In this document: positions 14,824 through 41,572 of the stretch, piece after piece
Layout of the letters: the number at the start of each line of letters is the position of its first letter
Position numbering within the stretch: the first letter of the stretch is position 1
Origin: Flammeovirgaceae bacterium
GTDB taxonomy: Bacteria > Bacteroidota > Bacteroidia > Cytophagales > Cyclobacteriaceae
Direction: 5' to 3'
Length of the DNA stretch: 41,572 nt
NCBI GenBank assembly: GCA_021300095.1
Contig: JAJTHV010000024.1
Coordinates: 1-41,572 of the forward strand
The notes under the pieces: generated by a model
The model's input: the letters and a program-made list of their open reading frames with translations, nothing else
What the model was told of the DNA's origin: nothing
Databases searched by the model: none
Position numbers and translations under genes: made by a program

Positions 14824-14826
14824 TAG

Positions 14827-15360: not shown

Positions 15361-15379
15361 CCAGTAACTTAACTTTAAA

Positions 15380-15952: not shown

Positions 15953-15975
15953 TCCGGCAGCATATTTATTTGAAG

Positions 15976-19752: not shown

Positions 19753-20234
19753 TATTTGATGCTGCGAATCACGTTTCGTTTAGACATGCGAATGCCCAAT
19801 GCTTTGGTAAACTCTACGGAGCCATCTTTCTTTTCAAGCATCAGCGGTTTGGTATACAAAATCGAATCTTTTCCCATTTTTTGAACATTGTCGCTTAGGC
19901 TTGCGCTGCTGCCTCCGGTTATGTAGGCTTCAATTACTTTTTGTTCGATGGCACGCAGGGTGGAATCATTGGTTTGCATGGCGATGATTTCTACCTCAAA
20001 TGCTTTTTCGAGCGAATCGATTAGTGTAGTATTATTTAATTGTTTGTCTCTTTTTTCAATCAGTGTTGCGATCGTGCGCCCATTGGCAAAGGCAGCTTCG
20101 GTAATGTCGGCTTCAGCGATTTTCTTAATCTGGCTTTCTTCGCGCTCTTCGCGAATTTTTCTTTTTTGTTCTTCTGTCAGGGTGCCATTGCACGCAGCCA
20201 GCGACACGCAAAATATCCACACAAACTTCTTCAT
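19752..20234 (-). CDS. Small lipoprotein of unknown function coupled to the oxoprolinase gene
   Basis: A 160-residue lipoprotein whose leader ends 'SLAAC' (Cys15). It continues with a highly charged helix (about 20-45, E/K/R-rich), then 'DITEAAFANGRTIATLIEKR' (about 43-62), 'AIEQKVIEAYITGGSSASL', and the C-terminal 'DSILYTKPLMLEKKDGS' and 'KALGIRMSKRNVIRSI'. The layout is reminiscent of Tll0287-like (DUF3365) sensor domains, but no CxxCH heme motif is present, so I do not claim that family. A -7-like TAACTTTC lies upstream on the minus strand at 20260-20253. Overlap with the oxoprolinase start by one base implies co-translation of a periplasmic lipoprotein with a cytoplasmic enzyme, an odd pairing with no evident mechanism. 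Confidence 0.7.
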   Translation of the reverse strand: MKKFVWIFCVSLAACNGTLTEEQKRKIREEREESQIKKIAEADITEAAFANGRTIATLIEKRDKQLNNTTLIDSLEKAFEVEIIAMQTNDSTLRAIEQKVIEAYITGGSSASLSDNVQKMGKDSILYTKPLMLEKKDGSVEFTKALGIRMSKRNVIRSIK

Positions 20235-24516: not shown

Positions 24517-25410
24517 ATGAAGTATTTCTACTCCATTTTTTTGCATCTGCGCATCCCCTTTTCATTTTTTCTGATGCCGGTGTATCTCTTTGCGTTGGCC
24601 ATCTCACCTAATTTTGGTGAAAGCCGATTGATTTGGTCGTTCATCATTGTTCACTTGTTACTATATCCGGCCAGCAATGCCTACAACAGCTATTTTGATA
24701 AGGATGAGATGAGCATTGGTGGTTTGAAGAACCCACCACCGGTCAATAAGGGTTTGTATTACACCTCGCTGGCCTTTGATCTGCTTGCCATTGTGTTGGG
24801 CTATTTAAAAATCAACGCCTTGTTTGCTATCATGTTGTTGATTTATGGCGTGGTGTCGAAAGCGTATAGCCATCCTTCCATTCGCCTAAAGAAATACCCG
24901 ATTGCAGGGTGGTTAACCATTGGAATTTTTCAGGGATTCTTCACTTTTTTAATGTGTTATGTAGGTATCAATGGATTTGAATTAAGCAATCTCAGTCAGG
25001 TCAAGGTTTTAATTCCTGCCTTGTTAACCAGCATAATGCTTTGGGGTAACTATCCGATGACGCAGGTATATCAGCATGAAGAAGACACGAAGCATGGCGA
25101 TCGAACAATCAGTTTGATGTTGGGTATCAGAGGCACGTTTATTTTTGTGCAAGCCCTGTTTGCAGTAGCGACCATTTGTTTTCTGATTTACTTCCATCAA
25201 TTCCATTCCATGCAAATGGGGTATGCATTTTTAGTGGCCATGGCTCCGGTTGTTACCTTTTTTATGTATTGGTTTTATTTAGTGTGGAAGGATGCCTCTC
25301 AGGCTAATTTTTCTTTCACCATGTGGCTCAATTTCATCTCTTCTTGCTGCTTAAACGGGTTTTTCATTTACTTCTGGATAAGTTCTAGTCATCTAGATCA
25401 GTATTTCTAG
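24517..25410 (+). CDS. UbiA-family prenyltransferase
   Basis: A 297-residue integral membrane enzyme with about eight or nine helices. The first Asp-rich motif is 'NAYNSYFDKDEMSIGGL' (Asn57, Asp61, Asp63), corresponding to the NDxxD site that binds the prenyl diphosphate through Mg. The second is 'YQHEEDTKHGDRTISLMLG' (Asp190, Asp195), corresponding to the DxxxD site. 'YSHPSIRLKKYPIAG' is the usual intervening loop. UbiA enzymes attach polyprenyl chains to aromatic rings (ubiquinone, menaquinone, tocopherol, heme o). The first motif starts with N-A-Y-N rather than the more usual N-D, a mild deviation. Divergent position next to a type III polyketide synthase suggests the aromatic acceptor may be its product, which remains an inference. 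Confidence 0.85.
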   Translation: MKYFYSIFLHLRIPFSFFLMPVYLFALAISPNFGESRLIWSFIIVHLLLYPASNAYNSYFDKDEMSIGGLKNPPPVNKGLYYTSLAFDLLAIVLGYLKINALFAIMLLIYGVVSKAYSHPSIRLKKYPIAGWLTIGIFQGFFTFLMCYVGINGFELSNLSQVKVLIPALLTSIMLWGNYPMTQVYQHEEDTKHGDRTISLMLGIRGTFIFVQALFAVATICFLIYFHQFHSMQMGYAFLVAMAPVVTFFMYWFYLVWKDASQANFSFTMWLNFISSCCLNGFFIYFWISSSHLDQYF

Positions 25411-25466: not shown

Positions 25467-25474
25467 TAGTTTTG
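25467..25474 (+). promoter_or_regulatory. Candidate promoter -7 element of the giant repeat-protein gene
   Basis: TAGTTTTG matches TAnnTTTG exactly. The implied start near 25481 leaves a leader of about 15 bases and supports the ATG at 25496 over an upstream TTG at 25472. Confidence 0.45.
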
Positions 25475-25495
25475 TTACCCCCAAAACCTCAAAAT

Positions 25496-28400
25496 ATGAA
25501 ACGGCTCCCCCTTTGGCTGCTTTTAGTAGTAATTTTATGCCCTTTTCTTTCCAATAGCCAATCTCCCGGTGGTGTAAGTACAAATTTGCGGACCTGGGTA
25601 AAAGGTGACGTGGGTGTTACCGGCACTACCAACGTGAGTGTGTGGGCCGATCAAAGTGGTTTAGGAAATAACTTTTCGCAAGGCACAGTAGCAAATCAGC
25701 CGGCACTGGTTACCAATGATATAAACGGCCACGCCACGATCAATTTTTCAGGTAGCACTACAATTATGACGCCCGGTGCAGCCGTTGCTAATTTGAATAC
25801 TACAGTTTTTACTGTAGCCATTCCGATGATCAACACATCCTGGCGCACGATGTTCAGGGGAACGGCAAGTGATCATCCGCTCATCGTTCAATCGGGTGGA
25901 ACTACACTAGGTTATTTTGATAATGACAATGGCGGATTGCAGTCCAGCGGTTTCACTTGGTTGCAAAATGAAGTTGCCATGGTTGGCCTTGAAATGCGCG
26001 CAAGCAATGTAAACTTTCGTAAAAACGGTGTACAGGGCTTATCCATTTCAACCATCAACTTATCCGGACTCAGCCTAAATTTTTTCGGTAACTTTCAAGG
26101 GAATGGTCAGCCATTTGGAAGAATAGCTGAAACAATTATCTACAACTCGGCCACTGCACTTACAACAACAGAAAAGGAAAGAATAGAAAGTTATCTAGCC
26201 ATTAAGTATGGCCTTACATTGGCGCATAATTATTTAGCGAGCGATGGATCGGTGCTATGGGATGTGACGGCCAACGCAGGGTTCAATAACAACATTACCG
26301 GAATTGGACGTGATGATGCGTCTGCATTGGATCAACAAGCCTCCAGCAGTATCAATACAGCCGGGTCGGTGAGAATGGATGAAGGTGCTGCTTTTGCTTC
26401 TGATCTTAACTTTATTTTGTGGGGCGATAACGGAGCTACTGGTTCCAATTCGAATGTGCCCTCTCCCTACTTTTTCAGATCCGCTAAAACATGGCGCGCG
26501 GCAGTTATTGGTACGCCTGGCAATGTGACCTTTTCTGTCAATCTGCAAACGATCGGATTTCCGGTTACAGCATCAGCATCGGACTACGTATTGTTAAAAG
26601 ATACTGATACGGATTTTTCTTCAGGGGCCACCACACACACGGTCGGTGCCAATTTAGTTGGCAATACATTAACCTTTACGGGAGTTAGCTTTAACAACGG
26701 AGATTATTTTGCGATAGCCGCTGTAAATGCTGGTTTACCGGGTGGTGTAGCTGGGCCTATTTTCTGGGTGAAGGGTGATGTGGGAGTTACAGGTACAACT
26801 GACGTAAGCAGTTGGACTGATCAAAGCGGATTGGCGACCAACGCAACCCAAGGTACATTAGCCAATCAACCCTCTCAAATTGTCAATGATTTGAATTTTC
26901 ATTCAACCATTGATTTTTCTGGTAATACGGATTTCTTCTCAATCACCAACGCTCCTGCCAATTTGAATTCTACCATTTTTACGGTGGCCATTCCCCGTAT
27001 AAATACGAATTGGAGAACCATGTTCAGAGGTACAACCAGTGATCATCCATTGATTATTCAAAGCGGAGGCACAGGACTTGGTTATTTCGATGGTGACAAT
27101 GGTGGATTTAGGTCGAGCGGGTTCACATGGTTGCAAAATGAAGCTGCACTGGTAGGTGTAGAAATGAAAGCGGGAGATGTAAACTTTAGAAAAAATGGTG
27201 TGCAAGGAACTTCTATTGCCACAATCAATTTGGCAGGATTGAACTTAAACTCTTTCGGTAACTATACAACCAATAGTCAGCAGTTTGGGCGTATTGCTGA
27301 AACTATTATCTACAACTCGGCAACTCCCCTTACGGCTACTGAGAAAGAAAAAATTGAATCGTATTTGGCCATCAAGTATGGCATTACCTTATCGCACAAT
27401 TATCTTGCTAGCGATGGTTTTGTTTTATGGAACGTAACTACCAATGCTTCTTATAACAATAACGTAACAGGTATTGGCCGAGACGATCTTTCATCATTGG
27501 ATCAGCAAAAATCATTGAGTGTAAATTCAACAGGATCTGTGACATTGGATAAAGGGGCCGCTTTTACTACTGATAAAAGTTTTATTTTATTTGGTGATGA
27601 TGCAGGCGCTGGCTCAAGCTCAAATGTATCTGTTACTTATGCTGCGCGCGCTACACGCATTTGGAAAACAGCGGTAACTGGCACACCGGGGGTTGTAAAT
27701 TTTAGCGTTAACCTTCAATCGATTGGTTTTCCAAATACGGGTGCTGCTGCTGATTATGTATTACTTCAAGATAGTGATACCGATTTTAGTACAGGGGCAA
27801 CAGCACACACCAGCGGAGTAACATTGGTAGGCAATACACTTTCCTTCACAGGTGTTAGTTTTAATGATGGTGCGTTTTTCACCGTTGCCGCTGCGAATGT
27901 TTCTTTACCGGGTGGTATTGCCGGAAACCTAACCGTTTGGCTGAAAGCAAATGCTGGTTTAGAGAGAGCAGGTAACGTGGCCGCTTCCAATGGCGATGCA
28001 TTGGTTCGCTGGGTGGATCAAAGCGGGTTCGGTAGAAATTACACCGCTGTTGCAGGCCCTACCATGCAATCCAACACACTCAACTTCAACCCCGCAGCTG
28101 AAATTTTGGCAGGTGGTTTTGATGCACCAGTAGGTTCGGAATTATCCAACGATTGGACAGTGTTTTTCATTTCTCAAAAATTGGCATCTGATAATAACGG
28201 CCGTTTATTTGATGGACACACGGGAAATTTTTTGTGGGCGCATTGGGGAACATATACCAATAGCATTTTCCTTAACAGTATACCATCTAATTTTAACTCT
28301 GGGATTGCCACTACTACAGGAATTCAAAATTTACGTCTGCATTCCTATAAGCGCGAGTCTGTAGGCGGAACTCTAGAAGCGCGCGCTGATGGCACGCTGT

Positions 28401-31400
28401 TGAGCACTTTTGGGTCGAGCAATAGTGCAAACGGAATTCGAATAGATATCAATACAGGAGTATTTAGTGCAGGAGAAAGCTCTCACTCACGTGTAGGTGA
28501 AATGATTATTTATAACTCTGCCCTATCTTCTACTGATGTAAATAAAATTGAGAGTTACCTAGGTGTCAAATACGGCATCACTCTCACACATGATTACGTA
28601 GCTACTAATGGTACTACTCTTTGGGATGTAACTGCCAATACTGGATACAACAATAATATTACGGGCATTGGTCGCGATGATGAAGCAGGATTAAGCCAAC
28701 CAAAATCACTAAGCATCAATGCGAGTGGATCGGTCACACTTGATAAAGGCGGTGCATTTGGAACAAACAAAGATTTTATTTTGTGGGGTGATAATGGTTT
28801 GACTGGAACGAGTGCCAATGTTTCTTCTTCCTACTCTGCACGTAGCAATAAGATTTGGAAGACTTCCGTTAAAGGAACCCCGGGCGCAGTTGATTTTAGT
28901 GTGAACTTGCTCACCACCGGATTCCCTAATTCCGGAAATGCGGCCAGCTACGTAATCTTAAAAGATACCGACACAGATTTTACTTCGGGTGCTACAACAC
29001 ATAATACAGGAGCTTCCATTGTAGGCAACACCTTGTCATTTACCGGTGTCACATTTAATGATGGCGAATTTTTCACCATCGCAGCCTCTAATATTATTTT
29101 GCCGGGTGGAATTGCCGGAACTGTTTTTTGGGTGAAGGGTGATGAGGGTGTAACAGTAACAACCGATGTAAGCAACTGGGCCGATCAAAGTGGAATTGGC
29201 AACGATGCATTTCAAAACACGGCAGCTAATCAACCTTCGCTACTGAACAATGCGGTTAACTTTCATGCAGCCATTGATTTTTCCGGCAGCACCGATGTAA
29301 TGACGCCCATTACAGCACCCGCTAACTTAAATACGACAGTGTTTACAGTGGCCATCCCCGCTGTAAATACAAGCTGGCGTACGATGTTCCGCGGAACTGT
29401 AAACGATCATCCAATAATCGTTCAATCAGGTGGAACCCAGTTAGGCTATTTTGATAATGATAACAATGGATTTAAAGCTTCAGGATTTACCTGGCTACAA
29501 AATGAAACAGCTCTGGTTGGATTAGAGATGCGCACCGGAGACGTCAACTTCCGGAAAAACGGAGCGCAAGGAGCTTCGATCAATACCATTAACTTAGCTG
29601 GATTGAATTTGAACAACTTCGGAAATTCTCAAGGCGGAACTCAGCCTTTCGGTAAAATAGCTGAGACCATCATTTTCAACACCGTCTCGCCATTAACCAC
29701 TGCAGAGAAAGAAAGAATTGAAAGCTATTTGGCCGTTAAGTATGGCCTTACATTAACTCACAACTATGTTGCCGGAGATGCTTCGGTGTACTGGGATATT
29801 ACCAATAACGCAGGATACAATAATAACATCACTGGTGTGGGTCGTGATGATGTTTCAGGATTAGATCAACGCAAATCCAAGAGTTCAAATAGCGGCTCTG
29901 TATTGACGATCGAAAAAACTTCTTCGTTTGCCACTAATAAGGATTTCTGGATGGCTGGAGATAATGGCGGTTCGCTTGGCGCGTCAACGACTAATACACA
30001 TCCTTCTTATCCGATGCGGGTTACGCGTGTGTGGAAAGCAGATTTAAATGGAACACCTGGTGTAGTCGATATCAGTTTTGATTTGGGAACAGGTATTTAT
30101 AATAGTGGCTTGGTAACAGACTATGCGTTGCTATTTAAAACTGGCGATACAGATTTTAGCACCGGAGCAACCGCCTACACCACCGGTGCAAGTATTGTAT
30201 CGAATGTAATCACCTTTACAAATGTGCCGATAGCCGATGGAGATTTTTTCACATTGGCATTGCCGCGAGTCGTTGCTCCGGGTGGCGTCATCAATGGGCT
30301 GAATGTTTGGCTAAAAGCAAATGACGGAGTCTATTCAGATGCAGGCGTAACGCTCGCTACGGATGGAGGAACCGTACAGCGTTGGGGTGACCAAACAACT
30401 TTATCGAATCATGCAACGAATACGGGTTCTCCTGTTTGGAATTCTTCCAACAACCTGATCAACTTCAATCCGACATTATATTATGATGGTGCTAGTGGTC
30501 ATAATTTGACATACAGCTCTACCAACCAATACACAGTTGTTACAATGGGTCGAATGGAGGGAACGCAGAATAGAAGAATGTTTTCAAGTAGAACGGGTAA
30601 CGTATTGCTTGGTACATGGAATGGTAGAGAAGATGTGTTTTATTTAGATGCCAATCCAAGTTTGCTGACGGGTCTAACAGCAAGTACTAATCCAAAACTA
30701 TACACCACCACACGGGCCTCTTCAGGAGCTTATCAATTTTTGCGCAATGGATTCCCCTTATATTCAGGAGCATCTTCCTTTAACTCAACCGTACGTTTAG
30801 GCATAGCTAATGGCGGTGCACAAGCGGGAGAAGCGAGCCGAGCTTATATTTCGGAAGTGATACAATATGATCGAGATTTATCAACATCAGAATTGAATCG
30901 CGTTAACTCGTATATGGCTATTAAGTATGGAGTAAGTCTTGACCAGACTACCCCAACCAATTATGTTTCTGCTAATGGTACGGTGGTGTGGGATGCCACC
31001 GTTAACTCAGGATACAAATTTAATATCACTGGCATTGGCCGAGATGATGCATCGGGTCTAAGCCAACCCAAGTCAAAAAGTATCAATGCCGGAGCACCTG
31101 TAATTGTTGATAAGGGCGGTGCGTTTGCTAGCGATTTGGATTTTATGGTTTGGGGAAGTAATAGCTCTTACTTAACACCTACTAATATTAATGCACATCC
31201 TTCGTATCCCTATCGGGTTGGAAAAATTTGGAGAATGGATATTTCAGGTACACCAGGAACAGTTTCAGTAAGTTTTGATCTAAGTGCAGGTATTTACAAT
31301 ACCAATAATCCGGTAGACTATGCGTTGCTTATTAAAAATGCAGACAACAATTTTGGTACAGGTGCTACAGCACACACCACCGGAGCATCGTTTAACGGAA

Positions 31401-34400
31401 CCATCCTCACATTCACAGGAGTGAATTTTACAGATGGTGACTTCTTCACATTGGCGTTGCCCAATGTGCCTGCTCCCGGAGGTGTAGTAAATGACATGAC
31501 CTTGTGGTTGAAATCCGACAAAGGCGTATCAGGCGCATTAAATGCCTCTGCATGGGATGATCAAAGCGGTAACGGATTTAATGTATTGCAAAATTCGGCA
31601 GGTAATCAGCCCGCTATACAAACGAATAGAATCAACTTCAACCCTACGTTACAGTTTGATGGTGCCAATGACTTCCTCTCGTTAACAGGAGGTATTTTGG
31701 GCAATGTTAACACCTTCAATGATGTCTATGCATTTGTAGTTTCTCGCACCAATACGATAAGCGCCAGTTCTATTTTCTTTGAAACCACCAGCGGTGCAGG
31801 GCCTCAATTTAATTTCCATTCTCCCTGGAGTGATAACAATTTATATTGGGATGCGGGTAACTCCGGAACCAATCGCCTGGGAGTAAACTGGGGTGGCACA
31901 ATCAACACACCCTTTATGTGGGGATTGCAAGCCAGCACCACAGCTACCCCAACTGGGGCACGACAGGACATTTATCGAAATGGTTTCCGTATAGCGAATG
32001 ACGCTACCATGAATGGTTTTACCGGAAACAACAATAACTTCTTTATAGGATCAAGCTCTGCAACTAGCAATTTCTACAATGGTGATATTGGAGAAGTAAT
32101 TATTTACACGGGGCCACTGACAACCATTAAAACACAACAGATTCAAAGCTACTTGGCGTTGAAGTATGGTATCACAATCAATGGTTTTGATTACCTCTCA
32201 TCAGCGGGCACATCGATTTACAGAAACACGACCGCACAGGTCAGCTATTCACGCGATATTGCTGGTATTGCTCGCGATGATAATTCGGCTTTGGATCAGC
32301 GCAAATCAAAAACCATTAATACAACTGGCGATTTGATTACCATCGCAAATGGAGACTTTACTACACCTACCTCATTCACCAATAATTTGGAGTCGTTAGT
32401 GTGGGGACACAATGGTTTAGTAACACAAGCCGATGCTGCTACGCCAGCTTACACGCATAATGGTGTTAGTATCGTTCGGCAACTTGCCAGAGTATGGTCG
32501 ACAGAAAAGATTGGTTCACCTTCTGGAAATGCAATTGTTGAAGTAGATATGAGCTTCGTTATCGGCCCAAGTGGGCCAGGTACAAATAGTACCTCAGATA
32601 TTCGATTGTTAGTAGATAACGATGCAACTTTTGGTAATTCATCTGCCGGAGAGCGAGCTTATAATTCCACTTCTATTGCAGGAAATAAAATTTATTTTTC
32701 AGTACCGTATGTGGATATCCCATCTAATCAAGGGTTCTTTTCAATAGGCTCGGTCAACGCGGCCACGGCACCTTTAACAACTCCATCACCGGGGGGACTT
32801 GCTGTGGATTTACGTTTGTGGATAAAGGCTGATGCAGGAGTAACAGGAGGAGTTAATGCCTCAGCATGGACGGATCAAAGTCCGAATGCGTTTGTGTTAA
32901 ACCAAGCGAACGGAGCGAATCAGCCAACCGTCCTAGCAACCGGTGCCAATAGCAATCCTGCCATTCAATTTGATGGAGTGAGTGATGACATGGTGATTAG
33001 TAATGGTGTGTTTAAAACATTGACGCATTCGGATGTTTATATCTATGCGGTTTCTAAGGCACTGACGATTAAGAGTGCCAAGTTAACTAACGAAAACACC
33101 GTTAGTGGTACGTCCGGGTTTTATGCGCCTTGGGTAGATAATAATATTTATTGGGATGCAGGTGACGCGGGTGCAAACAATCGACTGCTAACTGCTTGGG
33201 GAGGTGCGATCAATGTCCCTTATCTATGGTCAGCCGGTGCGAGTATAACAGCTACACCATCATCAGCGAAGCAAGACATTTTGAGAAATGGATTGCGTAT
33301 AGCAAATGACAACACATTTACGGCCTTTACGGGAAACAACACCAACTTTACACTTGGCTCGCAAGTAGGAAGTAATTATTATAATGGTGAGTTATCAGAA
33401 ATGATCATCATCACCAGCCCCATGACCAGTGCACAGCAACTTCGCTTGCACAGTTATTTGGCGGTGAAGTATGGCATTACATTAGATCAAACGACACCTC
33501 AAAATTATGTGGCATCTGATGGAACTGTGATTTATGATGCGGTAACAACGAATAGTGGTTTCCGTTCTGATATTGCCGGCATTGGTAGAGATGATATTTC
33601 TGCACTTGATCAACGCAAATCGCAAAGTGTCAATCCTCGTTCTGCTGTACAAATAGATAAGGGTGGAGCTTTCGCTACAGACAAAACATTTTTAATGTGG
33701 GGCAGTGACAATGCTGTTCTTGGTCTCACTACTACCAATGCGCATCCATCGCTAACCTATCGTGTAAGCCGCGCTTGGCGTACTGACTTTACCGGAGCAC
33801 CCGGGGCGGTAAATGTAATCTTCGACTTAAGTGCTGGCATTTATAATAGTGGTAACGCTGCAGATTATCTATTGCTTGTAAAAAATTCTAACTCTAATTT
33901 TTCAACAGGCGCAACCACCTACACTGGCACCTTGGTTGGAAGTTTATTAACATTCTCGGGAATCAATTTTGTGGATGGAGACTTCTTCTCCTTGGGAGTT
34001 GCTAACATGCCTGCGCCCGGTGGCGTAGTGCCGAATCTTCATTATTGGATAAAAGCAGATGCTGGAGTAACAGGTGCAACGACAGTTTCAGCTTGGGCCG
34101 ACCAAAGTGGAAACGGATTTAATGTGATTCAAAATGCGGTAGCTAGCCAACCTACTTTGCAGAATAACCGCACCAACTTTAACCCGGCATTGCAATTCGA
34201 TGGCACCAACGATCAACTTACACTTTTTGGTGGAATCATGGGAACCTCTACGTATACCGACTTCCATGCGATCATGGTGACGCGAACGAATACGGTTGTG
34301 GCAAGTTCTGTGTTTTTTGAAACACAAGCATCCGGTGGTCGCATTAATATTCATCTTCCTTGGAGTGATAACAATTTGTATTGGGATGCCGGCTCGGCAG

Positions 34401-35896
34401 GGGGATCACAGCGACTAAACACACCTTGGGGAGGAACAGTTGCCACCAATTATGTGTGGAGTTTTACAGCAAGAACCACCGCGACTCCTTCCGGAGCTCG
34501 GCAGGATATCTACCGTAATGGAAGAAGAATTGCCAATGATATTACCATGGCATCTTTCACTGGCAACAATAGCAATTTTATTTTAGGGTCAGCTGGCGGA
34601 GGAAGTTATTTCAATGGTGACATAGATGAAGTAGTGTTCTATAAAGGACCTTTATCATTGTCGCAATTGCAACGTATTCAAAGTTACTTGGCTATTAAGT
34701 ATGGCATCACCTTGGACCAGACTACCGCTAGCAGTTATTATGCTTCTGATTGGAATGGTACTACCGGCACGGTGGTTTGGGATGCAACAACTGCCGGAAC
34801 TTATCGAAATGACATTACGGTAATTGGTCGTGATGATAGTTCTGGTCTTAGCCAAAAGCAGTCCGCTAGCGTAAATGCAAATAATGTATTGACGATTGGA
34901 AATACAGACATTGCAGCAGATAATAGTTCGAACTCAAATTCATTTATTGCGGATAAGAGTTTCTTTTCATGGGGTCATAATAATCAAGTAATGGCCGCAT
35001 TGACGGGCACAGACTTCGGAACCACTGTAAATGCAGAAGTGATATTGGCGCGCCTGGCTAGAACTTGGTTTTCGAAAGAGACTGGCACAGTTGGAACATT
35101 AAAATTGCGCTTCAATATGGCCAATGTAGTAGGAGTTAGCGGGTTTGTGGGGAATAACGACTTGAACGATGTTCGATTATTGGTGGACGCAGATGGAGTA
35201 TTTGCAACAGGATCAACTTCCATTGCACCATCCAGTGTAAACAACACCACGGATATCGTGGAGTTTGATTATGATTTTGCAGCAGGAACCGGCTTCTATT
35301 TTTCGATAGGCAGTGTTAATCTGGCAACCGCACCATTGCCAGTTGAGTTGATCAGCTTTACAGCAACACCAGATCAGGATGGAGTTATTTTGAAATGGGC
35401 AACAGCTTCGGAATTAAATAACGAGTATTTTGAAGTGGAATCTTCTATTGATGGAAAAAACTGGAGCGTTGTGGCTAAAGTAACGGGTATGGGTACTAAA
35501 TCTACCCGCACGGATTACCAACAACTCGATGCAACTCCCTATCAGGGAATATCCTATTACCGTTTAAAGCAAGTTGATTTTGACGGAAAATCAACCTATT
35601 CGAATATAGAGCAAGTTGATTTTCATAATAGTATTAAGTTGACAGTGTCGCCTAATCCATCGAATGGAAACAGTACAGTTAAACTCAAGCTGAATGCCGT
35701 GCCATCGGGTTCACAATTGTTGATACGCGTCACAAGCTTGCAAGGCATTGAGCTAGTGCGTCATCAGATTCAACTGACAGAAAAGAATAGTGTAGAGCAA
35801 CAATTGGATGTGAAAGGATTAGCGAATGGAACCTACCTCATCACAGCCGAGTTTGACGGACAAGTTCGTCAGGCGAAACTGATTGTAACTCACTAA
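25496..35896 (+). CDS. Giant T9SS-secreted multi-module protein (LamG-like repeats)
   Basis: A protein of about 3466 residues. The signal peptide spans about 1-22 ('LLLVVILCPFLSNSQ'). Eight tandem modules of roughly 390-440 residues fill 23-3280. Each module has a concanavalin/LamG-like beta-sandwich half opening 'PGGV...W.K.D.GV...W.DQSG', a joining segment 'IESYLAIKYGITL', and a second half with 'ITGIGRDD.S.LDQ.KS.S.N', 'DKGGAFATD..F..WG' and 'R.WK....GTPG.V..S..L'. A fibronectin-like domain ('LPVELISFTATPD', 'SYYRLKQVDFDG') covers about 3281-3375, and a type A T9SS sorting domain ('VSPNPSNGNSTVKL' to 'QAKLIVTH') covers 3386-3466. It is probably exported through T9SS and surface-anchored or released, acting in adhesion or glycan binding. 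No catalytic residues were recognised. A terminator follows 13 bases after the stop. Confidence 0.85.
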   Translation: MKRLPLWLLLVVILCPFLSNSQSPGGVSTNLRTWVKGDVGVTGTTNVSVWADQSGLGNNFSQGTVANQPALVTNDINGHATINFSGSTTIMTPGAAVANLNTTVFTVAIPMINTSWRTMFRGTASDHPLIVQSGGTTLGYFDNDNGGLQSSGFTWLQNEVAMVGLEMRASNVNFRKNGVQGLSISTINLSGLSLNFFGNFQGNGQPFGRIAETIIYNSATALTTTEKERIESYLAIKYGLTLAHNYLASDGSVLWDVTANAGFNNNITGIGRDDASALDQQASSSINTAGSVRMDEGAAFASDLNFILWGDNGATGSNSNVPSPYFFRSAKTWRAAVIGTPGNVTFSVNLQTIGFPVTASASDYVLLKDTDTDFSSGATTHTVGANLVGNTLTFTGVSFNNGDYFAIAAVNAGLPGGVAGPIFWVKGDVGVTGTTDVSSWTDQSGLATNATQGTLANQPSQIVNDLNFHSTIDFSGNTDFFSITNAPANLNSTIFTVAIPRINTNWRTMFRGTTSDHPLIIQSGGTGLGYFDGDNGGFRSSGFTWLQNEAALVGVEMKAGDVNFRKNGVQGTSIATINLAGLNLNSFGNYTTNSQQFGRIAETIIYNSATPLTATEKEKIESYLAIKYGITLSHNYLASDGFVLWNVTTNASYNNNVTGIGRDDLSSLDQQKSLSVNSTGSVTLDKGAAFTTDKSFILFGDDAGAGSSSNVSVTYAARATRIWKTAVTGTPGVVNFSVNLQSIGFPNTGAAADYVLLQDSDTDFSTGATAHTSGVTLVGNTLSFTGVSFNDGAFFTVAAANVSLPGGIAGNLTVWLKANAGLERAGNVAASNGDALVRWVDQSGFGRNYTAVAGPTMQSNTLNFNPAAEILAGGFDAPVGSELSNDWTVFFISQKLASDNNGRLFDGHTGNFLWAHWGTYTNSIFLNSIPSNFNSGIATTTGIQNLRLHSYKRESVGGTLEARADGTLLSTFGSSNSANGIRIDINTGVFSAGESSHSRVGEMIIYNSALSSTDVNKIESYLGVKYGITLTHDYVATNGTTLWDVTANTGYNNNITGIGRDDEAGLSQPKSLSINASGSVTLDKGGAFGTNKDFILWGDNGLTGTSANVSSSYSARSNKIWKTSVKGTPGAVDFSVNLLTTGFPNSGNAASYVILKDTDTDFTSGATTHNTGASIVGNTLSFTGVTFNDGEFFTIAASNIILPGGIAGTVFWVKGDEGVTVTTDVSNWADQSGIGNDAFQNTAANQPSLLNNAVNFHAAIDFSGSTDVMTPITAPANLNTTVFTVAIPAVNTSWRTMFRGTVNDHPIIVQSGGTQLGYFDNDNNGFKASGFTWLQNETALVGLEMRTGDVNFRKNGAQGASINTINLAGLNLNNFGNSQGGTQPFGKIAETIIFNTVSPLTTAEKERIESYLAVKYGLTLTHNYVAGDASVYWDITNNAGYNNNITGVGRDDVSGLDQRKSKSSNSGSVLTIEKTSSFATNKDFWMAGDNGGSLGASTTNTHPSYPMRVTRVWKADLNGTPGVVDISFDLGTGIYNSGLVTDYALLFKTGDTDFSTGATAYTTGASIVSNVITFTNVPIADGDFFTLALPRVVAPGGVINGLNVWLKANDGVYSDAGVTLATDGGTVQRWGDQTTLSNHATNTGSPVWNSSNNLINFNPTLYYDGASGHNLTYSSTNQYTVVTMGRMEGTQNRRMFSSRTGNVLLGTWNGREDVFYLDANPSLLTGLTASTNPKLYTTTRASSGAYQFLRNGFPLYSGASSFNSTVRLGIANGGAQAGEASRAYISEVIQYDRDLSTSELNRVNSYMAIKYGVSLDQTTPTNYVSANGTVVWDATVNSGYKFNITGIGRDDASGLSQPKSKSINAGAPVIVDKGGAFASDLDFMVWGSNSSYLTPTNINAHPSYPYRVGKIWRMDISGTPGTVSVSFDLSAGIYNTNNPVDYALLIKNADNNFGTGATAHTTGASFNGTILTFTGVNFTDGDFFTLALPNVPAPGGVVNDMTLWLKSDKGVSGALNASAWDDQSGNGFNVLQNSAGNQPAIQTNRINFNPTLQFDGANDFLSLTGGILGNVNTFNDVYAFVVSRTNTISASSIFFETTSGAGPQFNFHSPWSDNNLYWDAGNSGTNRLGVNWGGTINTPFMWGLQASTTATPTGARQDIYRNGFRIANDATMNGFTGNNNNFFIGSSSATSNFYNGDIGEVIIYTGPLTTIKTQQIQSYLALKYGITINGFDYLSSAGTSIYRNTTAQVSYSRDIAGIARDDNSALDQRKSKTINTTGDLITIANGDFTTPTSFTNNLESLVWGHNGLVTQADAATPAYTHNGVSIVRQLARVWSTEKIGSPSGNAIVEVDMSFVIGPSGPGTNSTSDIRLLVDNDATFGNSSAGERAYNSTSIAGNKIYFSVPYVDIPSNQGFFSIGSVNAATAPLTTPSPGGLAVDLRLWIKADAGVTGGVNASAWTDQSPNAFVLNQANGANQPTVLATGANSNPAIQFDGVSDDMVISNGVFKTLTHSDVYIYAVSKALTIKSAKLTNENTVSGTSGFYAPWVDNNIYWDAGDAGANNRLLTAWGGAINVPYLWSAGASITATPSSAKQDILRNGLRIANDNTFTAFTGNNTNFTLGSQVGSNYYNGELSEMIIITSPMTSAQQLRLHSYLAVKYGITLDQTTPQNYVASDGTVIYDAVTTNSGFRSDIAGIGRDDISALDQRKSQSVNPRSAVQIDKGGAFATDKTFLMWGSDNAVLGLTTTNAHPSLTYRVSRAWRTDFTGAPGAVNVIFDLSAGIYNSGNAADYLLLVKNSNSNFSTGATTYTGTLVGSLLTFSGINFVDGDFFSLGVANMPAPGGVVPNLHYWIKADAGVTGATTVSAWADQSGNGFNVIQNAVASQPTLQNNRTNFNPALQFDGTNDQLTLFGGIMGTSTYTDFHAIMVTRTNTVVASSVFFETQASGGRINIHLPWSDNNLYWDAGSAGGSQRLNTPWGGTVATNYVWSFTARTTATPSGARQDIYRNGRRIANDITMASFTGNNSNFILGSAGGGSYFNGDIDEVVFYKGPLSLSQLQRIQSYLAIKYGITLDQTTASSYYASDWNGTTGTVVWDATTAGTYRNDITVIGRDDSSGLSQKQSASVNANNVLTIGNTDIAADNSSNSNSFIADKSFFSWGHNNQVMAALTGTDFGTTVNAEVILARLARTWFSKETGTVGTLKLRFNMANVVGVSGFVGNNDLNDVRLLVDADGVFATGSTSIAPSSVNNTTDIVEFDYDFAAGTGFYFSIGSVNLATAPLPVELISFTATPDQDGVILKWATASELNNEYFEVESSIDGKNWSVVAKVTGMGTKSTRTDYQQLDATPYQGISYYRLKQVDFDGKSTYSNIEQVDFHNSIKLTVSPNPSNGNSTVKLKLNAVPSGSQLLIRVTSLQGIELVRHQIQLTEKNSVEQQLDVKGLANGTYLITAEFDGQVRQAKLIVTH
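25562..26734 (+). repeat. Module 1 of the giant protein (class A-x)
   Basis: First half class A ('FTVAIPMINTSWRTMFRGTA', 'GFTWLQNEVA', 'NFRKNGVQG'); second half class x ('FSVNLQTIGFPVTASASDYV'). About 391 residues. Confidence 0.8.
26735..27903 (+). repeat. Module 2 of the giant protein (class A-x)
   Basis: First half class A ('FTVAIPRINTNWRTMFRGTT', 'NFRKNGVQG') and second half class x ('FSVNLQSIGFPNTGAAADYV'). Closest relative of module 1, with clear similarity also at base level. Confidence 0.8.
27904..29098 (+). repeat. Module 3 of the giant protein (class B-x)
   Basis: First half class B ('NGDALVRWVDQSG', 'VFFISQKLASDNNGRLFDGH') joined to a class x second half ('FSVNLLTTGFPNSGNAASYV'). 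Confidence 0.8.
29099..30273 (+). repeat. Module 4 of the giant protein (class A-y)
   Basis: First half class A again ('FTVAIPAVNTSWRTMFRGTV', 'NFRKNGAQG') but the second half is class y ('THPSYPMRVTRVWKADLNG', 'SFDLGTGIYNSG'). Confidence 0.8.
30274..31471 (+). repeat. Module 5 of the giant protein (class B-y)
   Basis: First half class B ('GGTVQRWGDQTTLSN', 'MGRMEGTQNRRMFSSRTGN') with a class y second half ('AHPSYPYRVGKIWRMDISG', 'SFDLSAGIYNTN'). Confidence 0.8.
31472..32784 (+). repeat. Module 6 of the giant protein (class C-z)
   Basis: First half class C ('FHSPWSDNNLYWDAGNSG', 'ARQDIYRNGFRIANDATMNG') with a longer class z second half ('IVRQLARVWSTEK', 'DIRLLVDNDATFG'). Confidence 0.8.
32785..34010 (+). 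repeat. Module 7 of the giant protein (class C-y)
   Basis: First half class C ('YAPWVDNNIYWDAGDAG', 'AKQDILRNGLRIAND') with a class y second half ('AHPSLTYRVSRAWRTDFTG', 'FDLSAGIYNSG'). Confidence 0.8.
34011..35336 (+). repeat. Module 8 of the giant protein (class C-z)
   Basis: First half class C ('HLPWSDNNLYWDAGSAG', 'ARQDIYRNGRRIANDITMAS') and class z second half ('ILARLARTWFSKE', 'DVRLLVDADGVFA'). Followed by the fibronectin-like and sorting domains. Confidence 0.8.
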
Positions 35897-35962: not shown

Positions 35963-38900
35963 TTAATTCACTATTGGATTTTTCTTGATCATGATTACGT
36001 CTACTCCTTTTTCTTTTGCCAACGAATTAATCCGCTCCGTATTTTGCTGAATCGTTTGCTGTAATTTAGTTAGCTCTTCGTCAATAATTTTTGAAAGCTG
36101 CTGACGTACTTCTTCTCCTTGTTGTGTAGGTGGAAAATCTCCGGCAGCCTGCTCGCTCAGTAAGTGAGCCAATCGATTATTGATTTTGATTCCATAATTC
36201 AATGGATCTTGTACGCTCTTGTTTTTGGTTTGGTGTAAGTTGTTTTCGTGTTGCGTCAATTCAGTTTCAAACTTTTTCACCAAATCCAACAACTCTTTGT
36301 ATTGCGCTTCGCTGCCCATTTTATTTTTCAATGAACCAAGATCTTCTTTAATCTTTCGAATATCAATTACACCTTGATTGGCTTCGCTCACTTTGTCGCG
36401 CACTTTCACTAAGAAATCAAATTGTGCTTGAAATTCTTCTGCGGTGGTGTTGATGCGTGGGTCTTTCAAGATTTCAAATTCTTGTTCAAGACTTTGATCG
36501 TTCACTGTTAGCAGAACTTTGTATTTGCCGGGCACCACTTTGGGTCCAATATTGGGCGACCCATAAAACACCAGTCCCGGAAATGACTGAAACCCGGGGT
36601 AACGCATATCCCAAACAAAACGATTTCCACCGGCTTTTATCTTTAGCTGTTGATTTCGTTCTTTTGATTGGTTACTGAATGTGCGAATCACTTTCCCATT
36701 GTTTTCCACGAAAGTGATTTTTACTTCATCTTTTTCATCTAGCGCCTTTAGATAAAAATGAACCATCACACCGCCCGGATGATTTTCGCCTTCGCCCTTG
36801 CGCGGCTCGCGATATCCACCTTGACTTGGCATCCGGTAAGTGGGCATTGGCTTATAGAGGATTCGATCTTTTGATGCCAACTCTGAAGTTAGTTGCTGGA
36901 GAGGTGTTAGGTCATCAATCATCCAAAATCCACGGCCATGTGTTGCTGCAATGAGATTGTCATTCTTCACAGTAAGATCAGCAATTGGCACGGGAGGAAT
37001 ATTTAGTTTGAATGAATTCCAACTCGCGCCATCGTCAAAGGAAACCCACATTCCTTTTTCGGTGCCTGCATATAACAAGCCCGGACGCTTGAGGTCTGCA
37101 CGCACGACACGTGCAAACTCTTCGGAGGGAATTCCTTGCGTGATTTGAGTCCACGTCTTGCCATAGTCGGTGGTTTTGTAAATGTACGGAGTGTAGTCGC
37201 CAAACTTGTACGAGGTGGCAACTGCGTATGCACCGCCTTTCACAAATGGATTTACATCAATACTGTTCCACATGTTGTATTTTGGCGAAGTAGGTGGTGT
37301 TACGTTCTTCCAACTTTTCCCACCATCAGTGGTTACATGGATTAATCCATCATCCGATCCGGTCCAGATTTCATCTTTCGTAAAAGGTGATTCTGTAATC
37401 ACAAAGATGTTAGCATAATATTCAGCACCCGTATTGTCTTGTGTGATCGGGCCTCCGGATGATTTGATCGTTTCGGGTTCACCACGCGTCAGGTCCGGAC
37501 TAATCTCTTGCCAGCTTTGACCTCCATTGGTAGTGGCATGCAAGTGATTGGATCCGGCAAATAGTTTTTTGGGATCGTGTTTGCTGAACACCAACGGATA
37601 ATTCCAGTTGAAGCGATATTTCATTACTTCAACACCCGAACCCGCGGGAAGATCGGGCCACACATTGGTGCTACGCTCCTGACCGTTTTCGAGATTCTGC
37701 ATGCTCATGTAGCCTTTATAATCACTACCATAAATGATGGAAGGATTGAGCGGATCAGGAGCAAGATGCGCGCTTTCGCCAATCGAGAGCGCCACCCAAT
37801 CTTTATCAGAAATAGAACTTCCGTTGGTACGATGTGAAATTCGTACGCTCGTGTTGTCTTGCTGCGCTCCTAAAATGTGATACGGAAATGCGTTGTCGGT
37901 GGTGACGCGATAAAATTGTGCCGTAGGTTGATTATGATAAGTAGTCCAATTTTCGCCACCGTCATTTGAAATTTGGGCGCCACCATCATCTGCAATCGCC
38001 ATGCGCTTGTTGTTGGTAGGGTCGATCCACAAATCGTGGTGATCACCATGCGGTGCATCCTTCAGCTCAAATGTTTTGCCACCGTCCTTCGATACACCAT
38101 AACTCACGTTCATCACAAAGACTTTGTCTTCGTTTTGTGAATCAGCGTAAATGCGGCAATAGTACCACGCCCTTTGTAGCAATGCACGATCCTGATTCAC
38201 ACGTGTCCACGTGCTGCCGGCATCATCCGATCGGTAGATTCCGGGGGCTTCGGTGTTTTCAATGATCGACCAAATACGATTGGAGTTAACAGGTGAAACG
38301 GTCACTCCGATAATGCCATTGATTCCTTTCGGCATCCCGGGCTTGTCTGACAAATTTTCCCACGTCTCTCCACCGTCTGTACTTTTATACAATTTTGAAT
38401 CAGGGCCACCACTGTCCATGCGATAGCCATTGCGTTTCATGCTCCACATGGCAGCATATAGAATGCGTGGGTTGTTGGGATCCATCACCAAATCACCAGC
38501 CATGGTAGAAGAATTGATATACAGAATTTTTTTCCACGTGGTGCCGCCATCGGTGCTTTTGAAAATTCCACGCATTTCATTCGGCTTCCACAGATTCCCC
38601 ATTGCGGCCACATACACTACGTCTGCATTTTTTGGATGAATACGAATACGCGAAATATGTCGCGAATCTTTTAGCCCGATGTGTTTCCATGTTGTGCCCG
38701 CATCGGTTGATCGCCACACGCCCCAGCCACTCGATACATTGTTGCGCAACGTTTGTTCGCCTTCGCCCACATAGATTACGTTTGGATCACTAGGTGCTAC
38801 AGCTACTGCGCCAATCGTTCCACCAAAATAATTATCAGTGAGGTTCTCCCATGATTGCCCTGCGTCTTTTGTGCGCCACACTCCACCACCCACAGTGCCG

Positions 38901-39094
38901 AAGTAATACAAATTCGGGTTGCCTACTACACCTGTGACGGTACATGATCTACCTCCGCGGTAAGGCCCCACTTCGCGCCAACGTACGCCAGAGTAAAGAG
39001 CAGCATCAAACGAAAGTGTAGCTGTCTGTGGTTTTTTTTGTGCCCACACATCTGCGACAAGCAGGGCAAGTATGAAAAGAACGATTTGCTTCAT
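35963..39094 (-). CDS. Secreted Asp-box beta-propeller protein (sortilin/VPS10-like, 'glycosyl hydrolase' BNR type)
   Basis: A 1043-residue protein with a signal peptide (about 1-18, ending 'ADVWAQ'). About eleven Asp-box motifs (S/T-x-D-x-G-x-x-W/F) run from about residue 74 to 700: 'RTKDAGQSW', 'RSTDAGTTW', 'KSTDGGTTW', 'KSTDGGETW', 'RSDDAGSTW', 'VSKDGGKTF', 'SNDGGENW', 'TTNGGQSW', 'TTDGGKSW', 'KTTDYGKTW', 'SFDDGASW'. This is the hallmark of sortilin- and sialidase-like propellers. The region 740-870 is a beta-sandwich ('GGNRFVWDMRYPGF', 'VVPGKYKVLLTV') and 880-1030 is a coiled-coil helical tail. No T9SS sorting domain is present. Asp-boxes are structural, so the 'hydrolase' name does not establish catalysis; no sialidase Arg triad was identified. 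It starts 6 bases after its paralogue's stop. Confidence 0.8.
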   Translation of the reverse strand: MKQIVLFILALLVADVWAQKKPQTATLSFDAALYSGVRWREVGPYRGGRSCTVTGVVGNPNLYYFGTVGGGVWRTKDAGQSWENLTDNYFGGTIGAVAVAPSDPNVIYVGEGEQTLRNNVSSGWGVWRSTDAGTTWKHIGLKDSRHISRIRIHPKNADVVYVAAMGNLWKPNEMRGIFKSTDGGTTWKKILYINSSTMAGDLVMDPNNPRILYAAMWSMKRNGYRMDSGGPDSKLYKSTDGGETWENLSDKPGMPKGINGIIGVTVSPVNSNRIWSIIENTEAPGIYRSDDAGSTWTRVNQDRALLQRAWYYCRIYADSQNEDKVFVMNVSYGVSKDGGKTFELKDAPHGDHHDLWIDPTNNKRMAIADDGGAQISNDGGENWTTYHNQPTAQFYRVTTDNAFPYHILGAQQDNTSVRISHRTNGSSISDKDWVALSIGESAHLAPDPLNPSIIYGSDYKGYMSMQNLENGQERSTNVWPDLPAGSGVEVMKYRFNWNYPLVFSKHDPKKLFAGSNHLHATTNGGQSWQEISPDLTRGEPETIKSSGGPITQDNTGAEYYANIFVITESPFTKDEIWTGSDDGLIHVTTDGGKSWKNVTPPTSPKYNMWNSIDVNPFVKGGAYAVATSYKFGDYTPYIYKTTDYGKTWTQITQGIPSEEFARVVRADLKRPGLLYAGTEKGMWVSFDDGASWNSFKLNIPPVPIADLTVKNDNLIAATHGRGFWMIDDLTPLQQLTSELASKDRILYKPMPTYRMPSQGGYREPRKGEGENHPGGVMVHFYLKALDEKDEVKITFVENNGKVIRTFSNQSKERNQQLKIKAGGNRFVWDMRYPGFQSFPGLVFYGSPNIGPKVVPGKYKVLLTVNDQSLEQEFEILKDPRINTTAEEFQAQFDFLVKVRDKVSEANQGVIDIRKIKEDLGSLKNKMGSEAQYKELLDLVKKFETELTQHENNLHQTKNKSVQDPLNYGIKINNRLAHLLSEQAAGDFPPTQQGEEVRQQLSKIIDEELTKLQQTIQQNTERINSLAKEKGVDVIMIKKNPIVN

Positions 39095-39100
39095 AAGCTC

Positions 39101-41572
39101 CTAGTTGTTGATTGTTGCGTCTTTTGTTTCCGTAATCAAAGCCGGCATGTTTTTATCTTTAAACAGCTTGTTGTATTGTTGAATGTCGCTGTTGATTAAG
39201 ATTTGCATTTGCTGCTTGTATTTTACCCAGTCGGCTTGCACATCGCGCGCTCGATCTTGCGCACCTTTGGTCAGGCGTGGATCGTGAGTATCGGCTACGC
39301 CACGCAATTGCAAAAATTCTGAGTTGAGTTTGTTTGGGAAGTTGATCACATCTTGGAAATTCTTGCTGCGAGGTTCGATCAAGTTGCTTTCCCACTTTTC
39401 AATTTTCTTGATCAGCTCTTTGCCCGTGTTGATGATTTCTTTTGCATCGGCATTGTCTTTCAGTGATTCATTGTAGGTTTCAATTTGTTTTTTCACCTGA
39501 CGCATTTTGTTCACCGACTTATGGAGCTCTTCAAACTGATCTCCGGCTTGTTTTAAAAACTCTTGCTGAGCAGCCCACTCTGCCGGGGTAGCAGTAATTT
39601 TTGGGTCAGAAATAATTTCAAGTTCGGTTTCAGAAATCACACCTTTGTGAGAGATACGTGCTTTGTATTTACCAGGAGCCACGCGATAGCCCTGGTAATC
39701 GCCATATACAAAAACACCGGGCACGCCACTCAGTGCTTCTGTTCTGAAATCCCACGCAAAGCGATTTACGCCTGCTTCGGCAGGAATGGTTTGTTTAGCA
39801 GGAGGACCTCCGGGATAAGGCTTGAAGTTTTCATCTTTTTTGTTGGTGTAGCTGCGAATCACTTTTCCACTCATATCCAAAATATCGAGCGTTACTTTTG
39901 TGGTATCAGCTTTGTCTTTCAGATAGTAATCCAACAATACACCGTTGGCCGGATTGCGACCCAAGCCTGGAATATCTCCAAAGTATTCAGGAATGGTAAC
40001 AGATGATAAGCGATAGGTTGGCTTCGGAGTGAAAATTTTCAAACTCACATCTACCACACCTTTCGTTTGTTGAATGGCACCCAAATCATCTAATATCCAG
40101 AAAGATCTTCCCGCGGTAGACGCCACTAAATCATTATCACGAATGATTAAATCGGTAACGGGCACCACCGGTAGGTTTAACTGAAATTTGCTAAAGGAAT
40201 TTCCACCATCGGCAGACAAATAGAAACCTCTTTCTGATCCGGCATACAATAAGCCTTTTATTTTTTTGTCTTCGCGAATTACTTTGATAAAATCATCGGC
40301 ATCTACACCATTTCCAATTTTGGTCCAGCTTTTACCATAGTCGGTAGACTTGTAGGTCATGTTGCTGTAGTCGCTGAACTTGTAACGTGAAGCGGAAATG
40401 TAAACGGTAGCAGCATCGTGTGGAGAAACTTCGATGGAGTGAATCATTCCTTCGGGTAAACCAGCTGGTGTTACGTTTGTCCACGTTTTGCCACCATCTT
40501 TAGTGAGCTGTACTAATCCACAATCGCTACCGGTGTAAATCACTCCTGCTTGATGGGGTGATTCAATCACATAATAAATGGTGTTGTAGTTTTCGCCACC
40601 TGCCCCTTCGTTGGTGATGGGTCCACCGCTTACATCTTGTTTGGTGGTATCATCGCGTGTTAAATCCGGAGAGATGACATCCCAACTTAAGCCACCATTG
40701 GTTGTTTTGAACAACACATTGCCGGCATGATACATTGTTTTAGGATCATGTGGTGAGTTGATGAGTGGTGCATTCCAATTGAAGCGGTACTTCATCTTTT
40801 TGGGCGCGTACGCTAAGTTGGTAGAAGGGTACTCTTGTAAATCTTTCACTTCACCTGTGCGTCTATCCAGCACATCGATCTGACCTTGATAGCAACCTCC
40901 GTATAAAAATTCAGGATGGTTGGGATCGTTGAAAGCAACCCACGCACTTTCGCAGCCGGGTCCATTGATCCAATCTTTGTCTGTAATTCCAAAACTTCCG
41001 TTGCGGCTCGGTGTGGCTACTGAGGAATTGTCTTGTTGGCCGCCATATACCCAATATGGAAACTGATTATCGGCAATGACTCTATAAAACTGTGAGGTAG
41101 CCTGATTGTTGAGCGGAGAAAATGTGCGACCGGTGTTGTAGCTGATTTCGCCACCTCCATCATCTGCCAAAGCAAAGTTTTGATTGTTCTTTGGGTTAAT
41201 CCATAAGTCGTGCGTATCGCCATGGCCTACGCGAATGCTAGAAAATGTTCTTCCTCCATCGATGGAGCGCATCATCGGTGCGTTGAGCACATATACCACA
41301 TCGGCATTGACCGGATCGGCAAACACTTCCATATAATACCACGAGCGTGAAGTAATATTTTGATCGGTAGAGAGTAAATTCCATTTCTTACCACCATCAT
41401 CCGAGCGATACAATCCCGCTTTTGATTTCTCTGCTTCCACAATGGCAAACACACGATTAGGATTAGCGCGTGAAACGCTCACGCCAATTTTTCCCATTTC
41501 CTTGGGCAAGCCTTCATTGATTTTAGTCCATGTTTCACCACCATCTGTCGATTTCCAAATGCCGCAGCCGGG
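39101..41572 (-). CDS. Secreted Asp-box beta-propeller protein, paralogue, 5' end outside the window
   Basis: A reading frame of 823 codons plus stop, open to the window edge. The first visible residues are 'PGCGIWKSTDGGETWTKINE', an Asp-box, so the true start lies beyond 41572 and Met codons inside (41497 or later) are not starts. It parallels the downstream gene along its length: 'MGKIGVSVSRANPNRVFAIV', 'DTHDLWINPKNNQNFALADD', 'RVIADNQFPYWVYGGQQDN', 'GVIYTGSDCGLVQLTKDGG', 'GRSFWILDDLGAIQQ', then a beta-sandwich with 'GVNRFAWDFRTEAL' and 'VAPGKYKARISH', and a helical tail. The two genes are tandem duplicates in one operon, this one first. Function as for its neighbour is unproven. Confidence 0.82.
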   Translation of the reverse strand, partial: PGCGIWKSTDGGETWTKINEGLPKEMGKIGVSVSRANPNRVFAIVEAEKSKAGLYRSDDGGKKWNLLSTDQNITSRSWYYMEVFADPVNADVVYVLNAPMMRSIDGGRTFSSIRVGHGDTHDLWINPKNNQNFALADDGGGEISYNTGRTFSPLNNQATSQFYRVIADNQFPYWVYGGQQDNSSVATPSRNGSFGITDKDWINGPGCESAWVAFNDPNHPEFLYGGCYQGQIDVLDRRTGEVKDLQEYPSTNLAYAPKKMKYRFNWNAPLINSPHDPKTMYHAGNVLFKTTNGGLSWDVISPDLTRDDTTKQDVSGGPITNEGAGGENYNTIYYVIESPHQAGVIYTGSDCGLVQLTKDGGKTWTNVTPAGLPEGMIHSIEVSPHDAATVYISASRYKFSDYSNMTYKSTDYGKSWTKIGNGVDADDFIKVIREDKKIKGLLYAGSERGFYLSADGGNSFSKFQLNLPVVPVTDLIIRDNDLVASTAGRSFWILDDLGAIQQTKGVVDVSLKIFTPKPTYRLSSVTIPEYFGDIPGLGRNPANGVLLDYYLKDKADTTKVTLDILDMSGKVIRSYTNKKDENFKPYPGGPPAKQTIPAEAGVNRFAWDFRTEALSGVPGVFVYGDYQGYRVAPGKYKARISHKGVISETELEIISDPKITATPAEWAAQQEFLKQAGDQFEELHKSVNKMRQVKKQIETYNESLKDNADAKEIINTGKELIKKIEKWESNLIEPRSKNFQDVINFPNKLNSEFLQLRGVADTHDPRLTKGAQDRARDVQADWVKYKQQMQILINSDIQQYNKLFKDKNMPALITETKDATINN

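Follow-up and report, generated by a model that had tools for sequence, protein, structure and literature searches.

The window (the whole stretch of 41,572 nucleotides analysed) carries a giant open reading frame at 25472-35896 on the forward strand, encoding 3474 amino acids; the source assembly comprises 4.66 Mb in 473 contigs, is 92% complete and is probably a MAG. Judging from the sequence, the probable start is the ATG at 25496, and the N-terminus (25472-25564) is hydrophobic by eye and carries a putative Sec signal peptide. There follow, all on the same strand, eight modules of approximately 390-440 amino acids each at 25565-35335, a linker (35336-35644) and a T9SS type A C-terminal sorting domain (35645-35887). 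Each module is split by a segment of the form S-Y-[LM]-[AG]-x-K-Y-G, and we refer to the modules as M1 to M8 and to their first and second halves as H1 and H2. The eight two-part modules described in an earlier sequence-only reading of this DNA are real, and their coordinates needed adjustment by only a few bases.

The sorting domain is matched by TIGR04183 (26.7 bits against a cut-off of 23) and by PF18962 (32.8 bits against 27), and is included in the 40 of 41 sorting-domain matches in the source assembly that score above cut-off. The same genome encodes SprA (TIGR04189, 2357.5 bits, in a match containing one TGA and one TAA), the one component on which presence of the T9SS machinery was judged. 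From these sequence matches the giant protein is probably a T9SS type A cargo located on the cell surface.

The giant gene is flanked by a UbiA-family prenyltransferase gene (24517-25407) and by two Sortilin-Vps10/BNR genes (35966-41509). In the congeners G041, G045 and G008 the same two flanking genes are only 1.9-2.5 kb apart, with no part of the giant gene between them, and it is therefore an accessory gene. A DNA polymerase IV-like gene (by eye) takes its place in G041 and G008, so this is a variable site. Searches of the source assembly (92% complete) with a single query and with a profile found no match to the second half outside the giant gene, and on this search of second halves we rejected donor paralogues at other places in the genome.

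The first halves had been assigned by sight to three classes, of which two hold. Class A (M1, 25565-26188; M2, 26738-27358; M4, 29102-29722) shows 69-71% protein identity and forms a clade (96/98), and class C (M6, 31475-32146; M7, 32789-33451; M8, 34016-34681) shows 47-60% and likewise forms a clade (95/97). The proposed class B (M3, 27908-28552; M5, 30278-30907) has only 32% identity and consists of two old lineages, B1 and B2, whose relatives in other genomes form separate sets in a 70-row tree; first halves 3 and 5 nonetheless pair in a 24-row tree (99/96). Pfam Laminin_G_3 was matched above its gathering score in the first halves of M6 (28.9 against 27.6) and M8 (43.3) and was not listed for M1, M3 and M5 when each was scanned alone; of 35 first halves examined, 13 matched it at E<=0.01. 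AlphaFold models of M3, M4 and M6 (mean pLDDT 87-88), representing B1, A and C, were matched with Z scores of up to 17.8 (M3 residues 1-222, to a trans-sialidase), 19.2 and 20.2 (M4 and M6, each best to domain 4 of AbnA), respectively, to targets that we take to be ConA-like. Class A and C first halves together gave Z 18.4-20.2 against the AbnA entries at 13-17% identity, and a profile of all eight first halves weakly matched the AbnA domain (E=0.0014). We conclude that all three are ConA/LamG-like jelly rolls in the models, as would be M1 by its kinship with M4; the fold matches listed covered M3, M4 and M6, and the model of the M5 first half contains low-confidence stretches. On this fold the first halves are likely to bind glycan or polymer, and from fold and export signal alone the giant protein is likely to act as a multivalent surface lectin.

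The three classes proposed for the second halves fared less well. Class x (M1, 26189-26737; M2, 27359-27907; M3, 28553-29101) holds, with 62-66% identity and a clade at 91/99 (not starred). The y second halves (M4, 29723-30277; M5, 30908-31474; M7, 33452-34015) share 51-58% identity and are not a clade, yet a y clade is not rejected (AU p=0.387); since the M4 second half is equally near to those of M2 and M3 (52%) as to that of M7 (51%), y is a loose group. The z second halves (M6, 32147-32788; M8, 34682-35335) are only 38% identical, no closer than those of M7 and M8 (41%), and although joined in the 24-row tree (95/98) they are separate deep clades, z6 and z8, in the 70-row tree.

None of 35 second halves matched Pfam-A, and none NCBIfam, at E<=0.01, and profile searches of PDB sequences found no credible relative. 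The Pfam name DUF8202/PF26628 was considered for the second half; that accession is absent from the Pfam copy searched, the name was not found in the open literature searched, and we do not adopt it. In an AlphaFold model of M3 and M4 together (mean pLDDT 87, pTM 0.83) the second half is nearly all beta; a fold search, in which first halves fill the match lists, did not name its structure, which is no argument for a new fold. We therefore describe it as a predicted all-beta domain, of a family absent from the Pfam-A and NCBIfam copies searched, that is likely to serve as a scaffold. Relatives of the second half are encoded by at least 587 of the 594 stretches scanned across genomes, and matches at E<=1e-6 occur in 76 of the 196 genomes sampled from the family and in 26 of the 62 from the genus. 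Among the matches listed, the nearest named relatives are a Cyclobacteriaceae MAG and a Flammeovirgaceae MAG, and six others (L098, L109, L111, L118, L133 and L139) come from MAGs labelled Acidimicrobiia, Rhodospirillaceae, Pacebacteria, Patescibacteria or Caldilineaceae. Contigs with module relatives that are labelled outside Bacteroidota may reflect binning errors or transfers.

The central claim of the sequence-only reading was that first and second halves group differently, and for modules 1-5 separate trees of the two halves bear this out. With 24 rows from three species, the first halves reject a (1,2,3) clade (AU p=0.0014), and the second halves reject both a (1,2,4) clade (p=7.7e-5) and a (3,5) clade (p=2.7e-8); the conflict is thereby confirmed for modules 1-5. 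That for M7 hinges on rooting, as the unrooted 24-row second-half tree places 6, 7 and 8 on one side, weakly (42/73). The case for it comes from wider sampling: in the 70-row tree the M7 second half groups with module 7 of G084 (95) and the M7 first half with module 6 of the same genome (98), the second half of which is of z6 type. Tandem duplication of whole modules as the sole cause is rejected by the AU tests together with the sliding identity described below.

Sliding identity also locates the switches. Between M3 and M1/M2 identity is 25-47% in the first blocks of H1 and 4-29% over most of it, climbs approximately 20-30 alignment columns before SYLAIKYG, and is 47-82% through H2. M4, on the other hand, stays nearer to M1 than to M5 until approximately 30-45 columns past the junction, near a GRDD motif. 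As M3 switches before SYLAIKYG and M4 after it, the joint is a zone and not a point, and the two sharp junctions that had been proposed, at SYLAIKYG and PGGV, are replaced by switch points that, in the window and its relatives taken together, spread from about -25 to +75 amino acids around SYLAIKYG. In the model of M3 and M4 a helix (residues 208-222) closes the jelly roll, with the corresponding SYLGVKYG of M3 at its end. The stretch conserved among modules begins at the end of H1 and takes in the initial 70-80 residues of H2, and inter-module identity peaks at the joint (mean 0.62 at 0 to +20). It could be argued that no recombination took place, and that whole modules were duplicated while rate differences or convergent selection between the halves distorted the trees; z and B are indeed weak classes with long branches, and the M7 conflict varies with rooting. 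However, AU rejections in both halves and the abrupt change in identity between M3 and M1/M2 speak against this reading, which we regard as very improbable.

The array was then compared with those of congeners. All eight modules recur in identical order in G004, G016 and G009, the array of G009 being split over two contigs, and synteny of the locus extends to both sides in G004 and G016 and to the right side in G009. For all 23 congener modules whose two halves could be read on a single contig, the best match of either half was the same window module, and module positions correspond to cross-species clades in the 70-row trees of both halves, with one exception (the first half of G016 module 5, unresolved against modules 5 and 6 of G222). 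Orthologous identity is similar for both halves (86-98% for H1, 83-97% for H2), and therefore rate differences do not explain the incongruence, a further point against a history free of recombination. Of 48 half-module comparisons, 44 allowed an estimate and gave dN/dS of 0.02-0.08, dS being saturated in the remaining four; these values are whole-half averages, which a few fast sites could escape. Diversifying selection, for which these values give no sign, was rejected. No exchange between modules is visible among the window and its congeners over dS of approximately 0.4 to more than 2. From the constant content and order of the modules, together with purifying selection, we conclude that the mosaic is old and has been frozen in this lineage. 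The suggestion that the locus is generating binding diversity is accordingly not upheld here, given the constancy of the array in three congeners and the low dN/dS. Against G004, dS is patchy along the giant gene (0.43 in the M7 second half, 0.46 in the M5 first half and 2.17 in the M6 first half), which may reflect recombination between species.

Beyond the congeners, the comparison gives a different picture, in that the arrays of diverged relatives are shuffled. At identity cut-offs of 40% and 45%, 27 modules from six genomes (G052, G222, G084, G198, G126 and G246; the second G222 gene was left out) could be assigned. The same window module was best for both halves in 12 of these, several of them at the C-terminal end, and different window modules were best in the other 15. 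Heads of the A, B1, B2 and C types are each paired with more than one type of second half across the diverged arrays. The z6 and z8 second halves were found with C heads only, and z8 is the terminal type, being last in the window, in G084, in G198 and in a remainder of the G222 array, so some linkage persists at the C-terminal end. Across 51 ORFs the second half of the last module shows lower similarity to the rest (0.43 against 0.49, p=6e-6), and its first half does not.

We asked how far the two halves are independent in the family as a whole, using 541 within-ORF pairs in 99 ORFs from a set of 322 modules that remained after length filters. Mean block correlation was 0.37 within H1, 0.42 within H2 and 0.06 between them. 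H2 was alike (>=0.6) in 79 pairs, and in 53 of these H1 was unlike (<0.35); H1 was alike in 28 pairs, with H2 unlike (<0.45) in 8. Tests centred on each ORF were restricted to 51 ORFs and 429 pairs, leaving out the near-orthologous L067, L068 and L069 and ORFs with fewer than three module pairs. Here similarity in H1 and similarity in H2 were uncorrelated (r=0.003, with 517 of 1000 shuffles as high), and the within-half controls gave 0.54 and 0.61 (0 of 300 shuffles as high in each case). Among the ORFs with at least four modules the between-half correlation was positive in 12 of 28, against 23 and 25 of 28 for the within-half correlations. It should be noted that within-ORF pairs are not independent, that one genus (Roseivirga) contributes several of the ORFs, and that the 51 ORFs are mostly from Bacteroidota, with some loci labelled otherwise.

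Correlation with the H1 core falls across the joint from 0.48 (-50 to -20 amino acids) through 0.34 (-20 to 0) to 0.10 (0 to +20), and the H2 tail shows the opposite trend, with correlations of 0.08 (0 to +20), 0.27 (+20 to +50) and 0.44 (+50 to +80); blocks inside the H1 core and H2 tail, being self-correlated by construction, are omitted from these figures, and because the joint is highly conserved, with little variance, correlations there are lowered and noisy. A weak link (0.22) persists between the parts next to the junction. When H2 of modules i and j was compared with H1 of modules i+1 and j+1, the register expected from tandem duplication, the correlation was not significant (r=0.07, p=0.27; wrong-register control 0.05; 0.11, p=0.08 for C-part against N-part), so either breaks also fall near PGG, between modules, or the record is too old to read. 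By mean values only, H2 is most alike in adjacent modules.

Recent events in relatives are the best demonstration that recombination near the junction, which had been put forward together with gene conversion as the cause of the mosaic, does take place. The isolate contig L147, from Algoriphagus pacificus, carries across modules 2, 3 and 4 an exact repeat of 1298 nt with a period of 1197 nt; module 3 combines the head of module 4 with a second half that is that of module 2 beyond +126 nt. Repeat length and period place the crossover within 101 identical nucleotides, at +126 to +226 nt of H2. An exact repeat could in principle be an assembly fault. L072, from MAG G222, contains a 1343-nt repeat at 87.6%, in which the stretch from m4+3 to m5+148 recurs as m5+3 to m6+148; its copies differ by 12%, so misassembly of identical repeats is not easily the explanation. 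Both repeats are tandem duplications with both ends just inside H2 that made new pairs of halves. The earlier argument that the pattern excludes tandem duplication must therefore be withdrawn, as a duplicated unit that begins and ends inside the second half yields it. The L147 duplication, exact and with ends in the middle of H2, also disfavours the absence of recombination for the family. A single relative of the duplicated L147 head (73%) was detected, in G364, on a stretch that holds just two modules, and the ancestral order for the Algoriphagus duplication is therefore not settled by it.

These two are the only clear duplications in 100 non-redundant multi-module ORFs (351 modules, selected under a slightly different redundancy rule from the set of 99). 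Nine of these ORFs contained 11 self-matches (>=85%, >=120 nt), every one of which begins -26 to +176 nt from the junction; eight are short (120-215 nt) and fall where conservation is strongest, one of them belonging to the L147 event, and these eight may reflect conservation and not events. A further tract, of 552 nt at 86%, is shared by modules 1 and 2 of Pareuzebyella sediminis (L151); it is restricted to H2, ends near the next PGG and looks like a replacement of H2, that is, conversion. It is the one recent case with a clear tract end at PGGV, which had been proposed as a regular junction.

A potential explanation that would not alter module number is gene conversion, in which H2 is copied non-reciprocally in place and homogenised while H1 stays different. 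The L151 tract fits this, as do the second halves of modules 1-4 of G052, which form a clade of their own despite first halves of types A, A, B1 and B1, and across the family the best match lies in the same ORF more often for H2 (84 of 299) than for H1 (54 of 299; discordant 47 against 17, p=0.0002). However, the two longest recent events extend beyond H2 across the following H1, as tandem duplications and not as conversion in place. We consider conversion unlikely as the main process; because H2 more often resembles another module of its own ORF, it probably contributes.

Alternatively, H1 cassettes may have been exchanged between genomes, a horizontal replacement of lectin halves to which recombination within the protein would be secondary. 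The best match of H1 lies outside its own ORF in 245 of 299 cases; a C7-type first half has a z6 second half in G084 module 6 and a y second half in the window; and one module type is found at position 2 in G222 and at position 6 in G198, although the second-half join there involves long branches. Vertical sorting of shared ancestral types makes the same predictions, though, H2 is likewise closest outside its own ORF in 215 of 299 cases, and no recent transfer of H1 between species was seen, so that we give this explanation little credence.

The reading that we favour, and consider fairly probable, is that the giant protein is a T9SS-exported lectin-like array in which out-of-register recombination at the conserved joint uncoupled the halves, and that the array is now fixed in this lineage. 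Each module would comprise a ConA/LamG-like jelly roll followed by an all-beta H2, with the conserved stretch spanning the joint providing the homology. Unequal crossing-over between copies paired out of register would duplicate or delete tandem units, accompanied by a degree of H2 conversion, and the H1 of one module would in this way be joined to the H2 of another; repetition over time would uncouple the halves. In the window lineage these events would be old, after which the array was fixed and conserved between species. As inter-module identity is highest at the joint, recombination there would need no special system. We infer that the window array was made by the same process. A broader and more tentative proposal is that in giant T9SS proteins across Bacteroidota the joint (the SYLAIKYG helix and the first third of H2) is a universal coupling on which heads and scaffolds assort freely, which if true would amount to a bacterial combinatorial lectin repertoire inside single genes.

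The closest precedent found is the adhesin region of the gingipains and HagA of Porphyromonas gingivalis, for which strain-variable combinations of modules, termed "combinatorial modularity", and recombination have been described (PMC5266723). Both are T9SS-exported surface proteins of Bacteroidota built of modules; whole domains vary between strains in the gingipain case, whereas here the halves within modules are uncoupled, and four species share one module order. Cleaved adhesin and DUF2436 domains were not listed for the window protein in a whole-protein Pfam scan (E<=1). In the CshA/CshB NR2 (PAD family) adhesive domains, domain shuffling likewise reuses a mutable ligand-binding fold across multi-domain surface proteins, but the summary of that study concerns the spread of one adhesive family and not two halves assorting within a tandem module (PMC10952558). 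A biphasic evolution of protein repeats, in which new repeats diverge fast and each is then conserved, has also been described (PMC5120217); the window is similar in that its paralogous modules have diverged and its orthologous modules are conserved, and differs in that the unit being duplicated is offset from the domain pair, repeats being treated as units in the summary of that study. Domain 4 of AbnA from Geobacillus stearothermophilus (PDB 5hon, an arabinanase), the top fold match to class A and C first halves, is by contrast a single accessory domain of an enzyme.

Repeat shuffling is thus already known, and half-module assortment is a variant of it; no description of this module family or of such assortment was found in the literature searched, which did not extend to subscription papers. 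What the family adds is that a repeat protein can gain new domain pairings through simple out-of-step duplication, without a dedicated system, as supported by the family-wide statistic and the two recent duplications. It also brings to light a widespread domain, the second half, that the Pfam and NCBIfam copies searched lack, and the arrays provide a test of whether head swaps alter what a bacterium binds.

Two further observations concern the relatives. The G222 MAG has two related multi-module genes (among L072, L073 and L173), both of which run off contig ends, with no blastn similarity between their upstream flanks; a third contig of this MAG carries the remainder that ends in a C8-z8 module. 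In L147 the six modules are followed, within 6437-20231, by a second array with repeats of approximately 110-120 amino acids by eye and direct repeats at a spacing of 699-702 nt, and one ORF therefore holds two unrelated repeat arrays.
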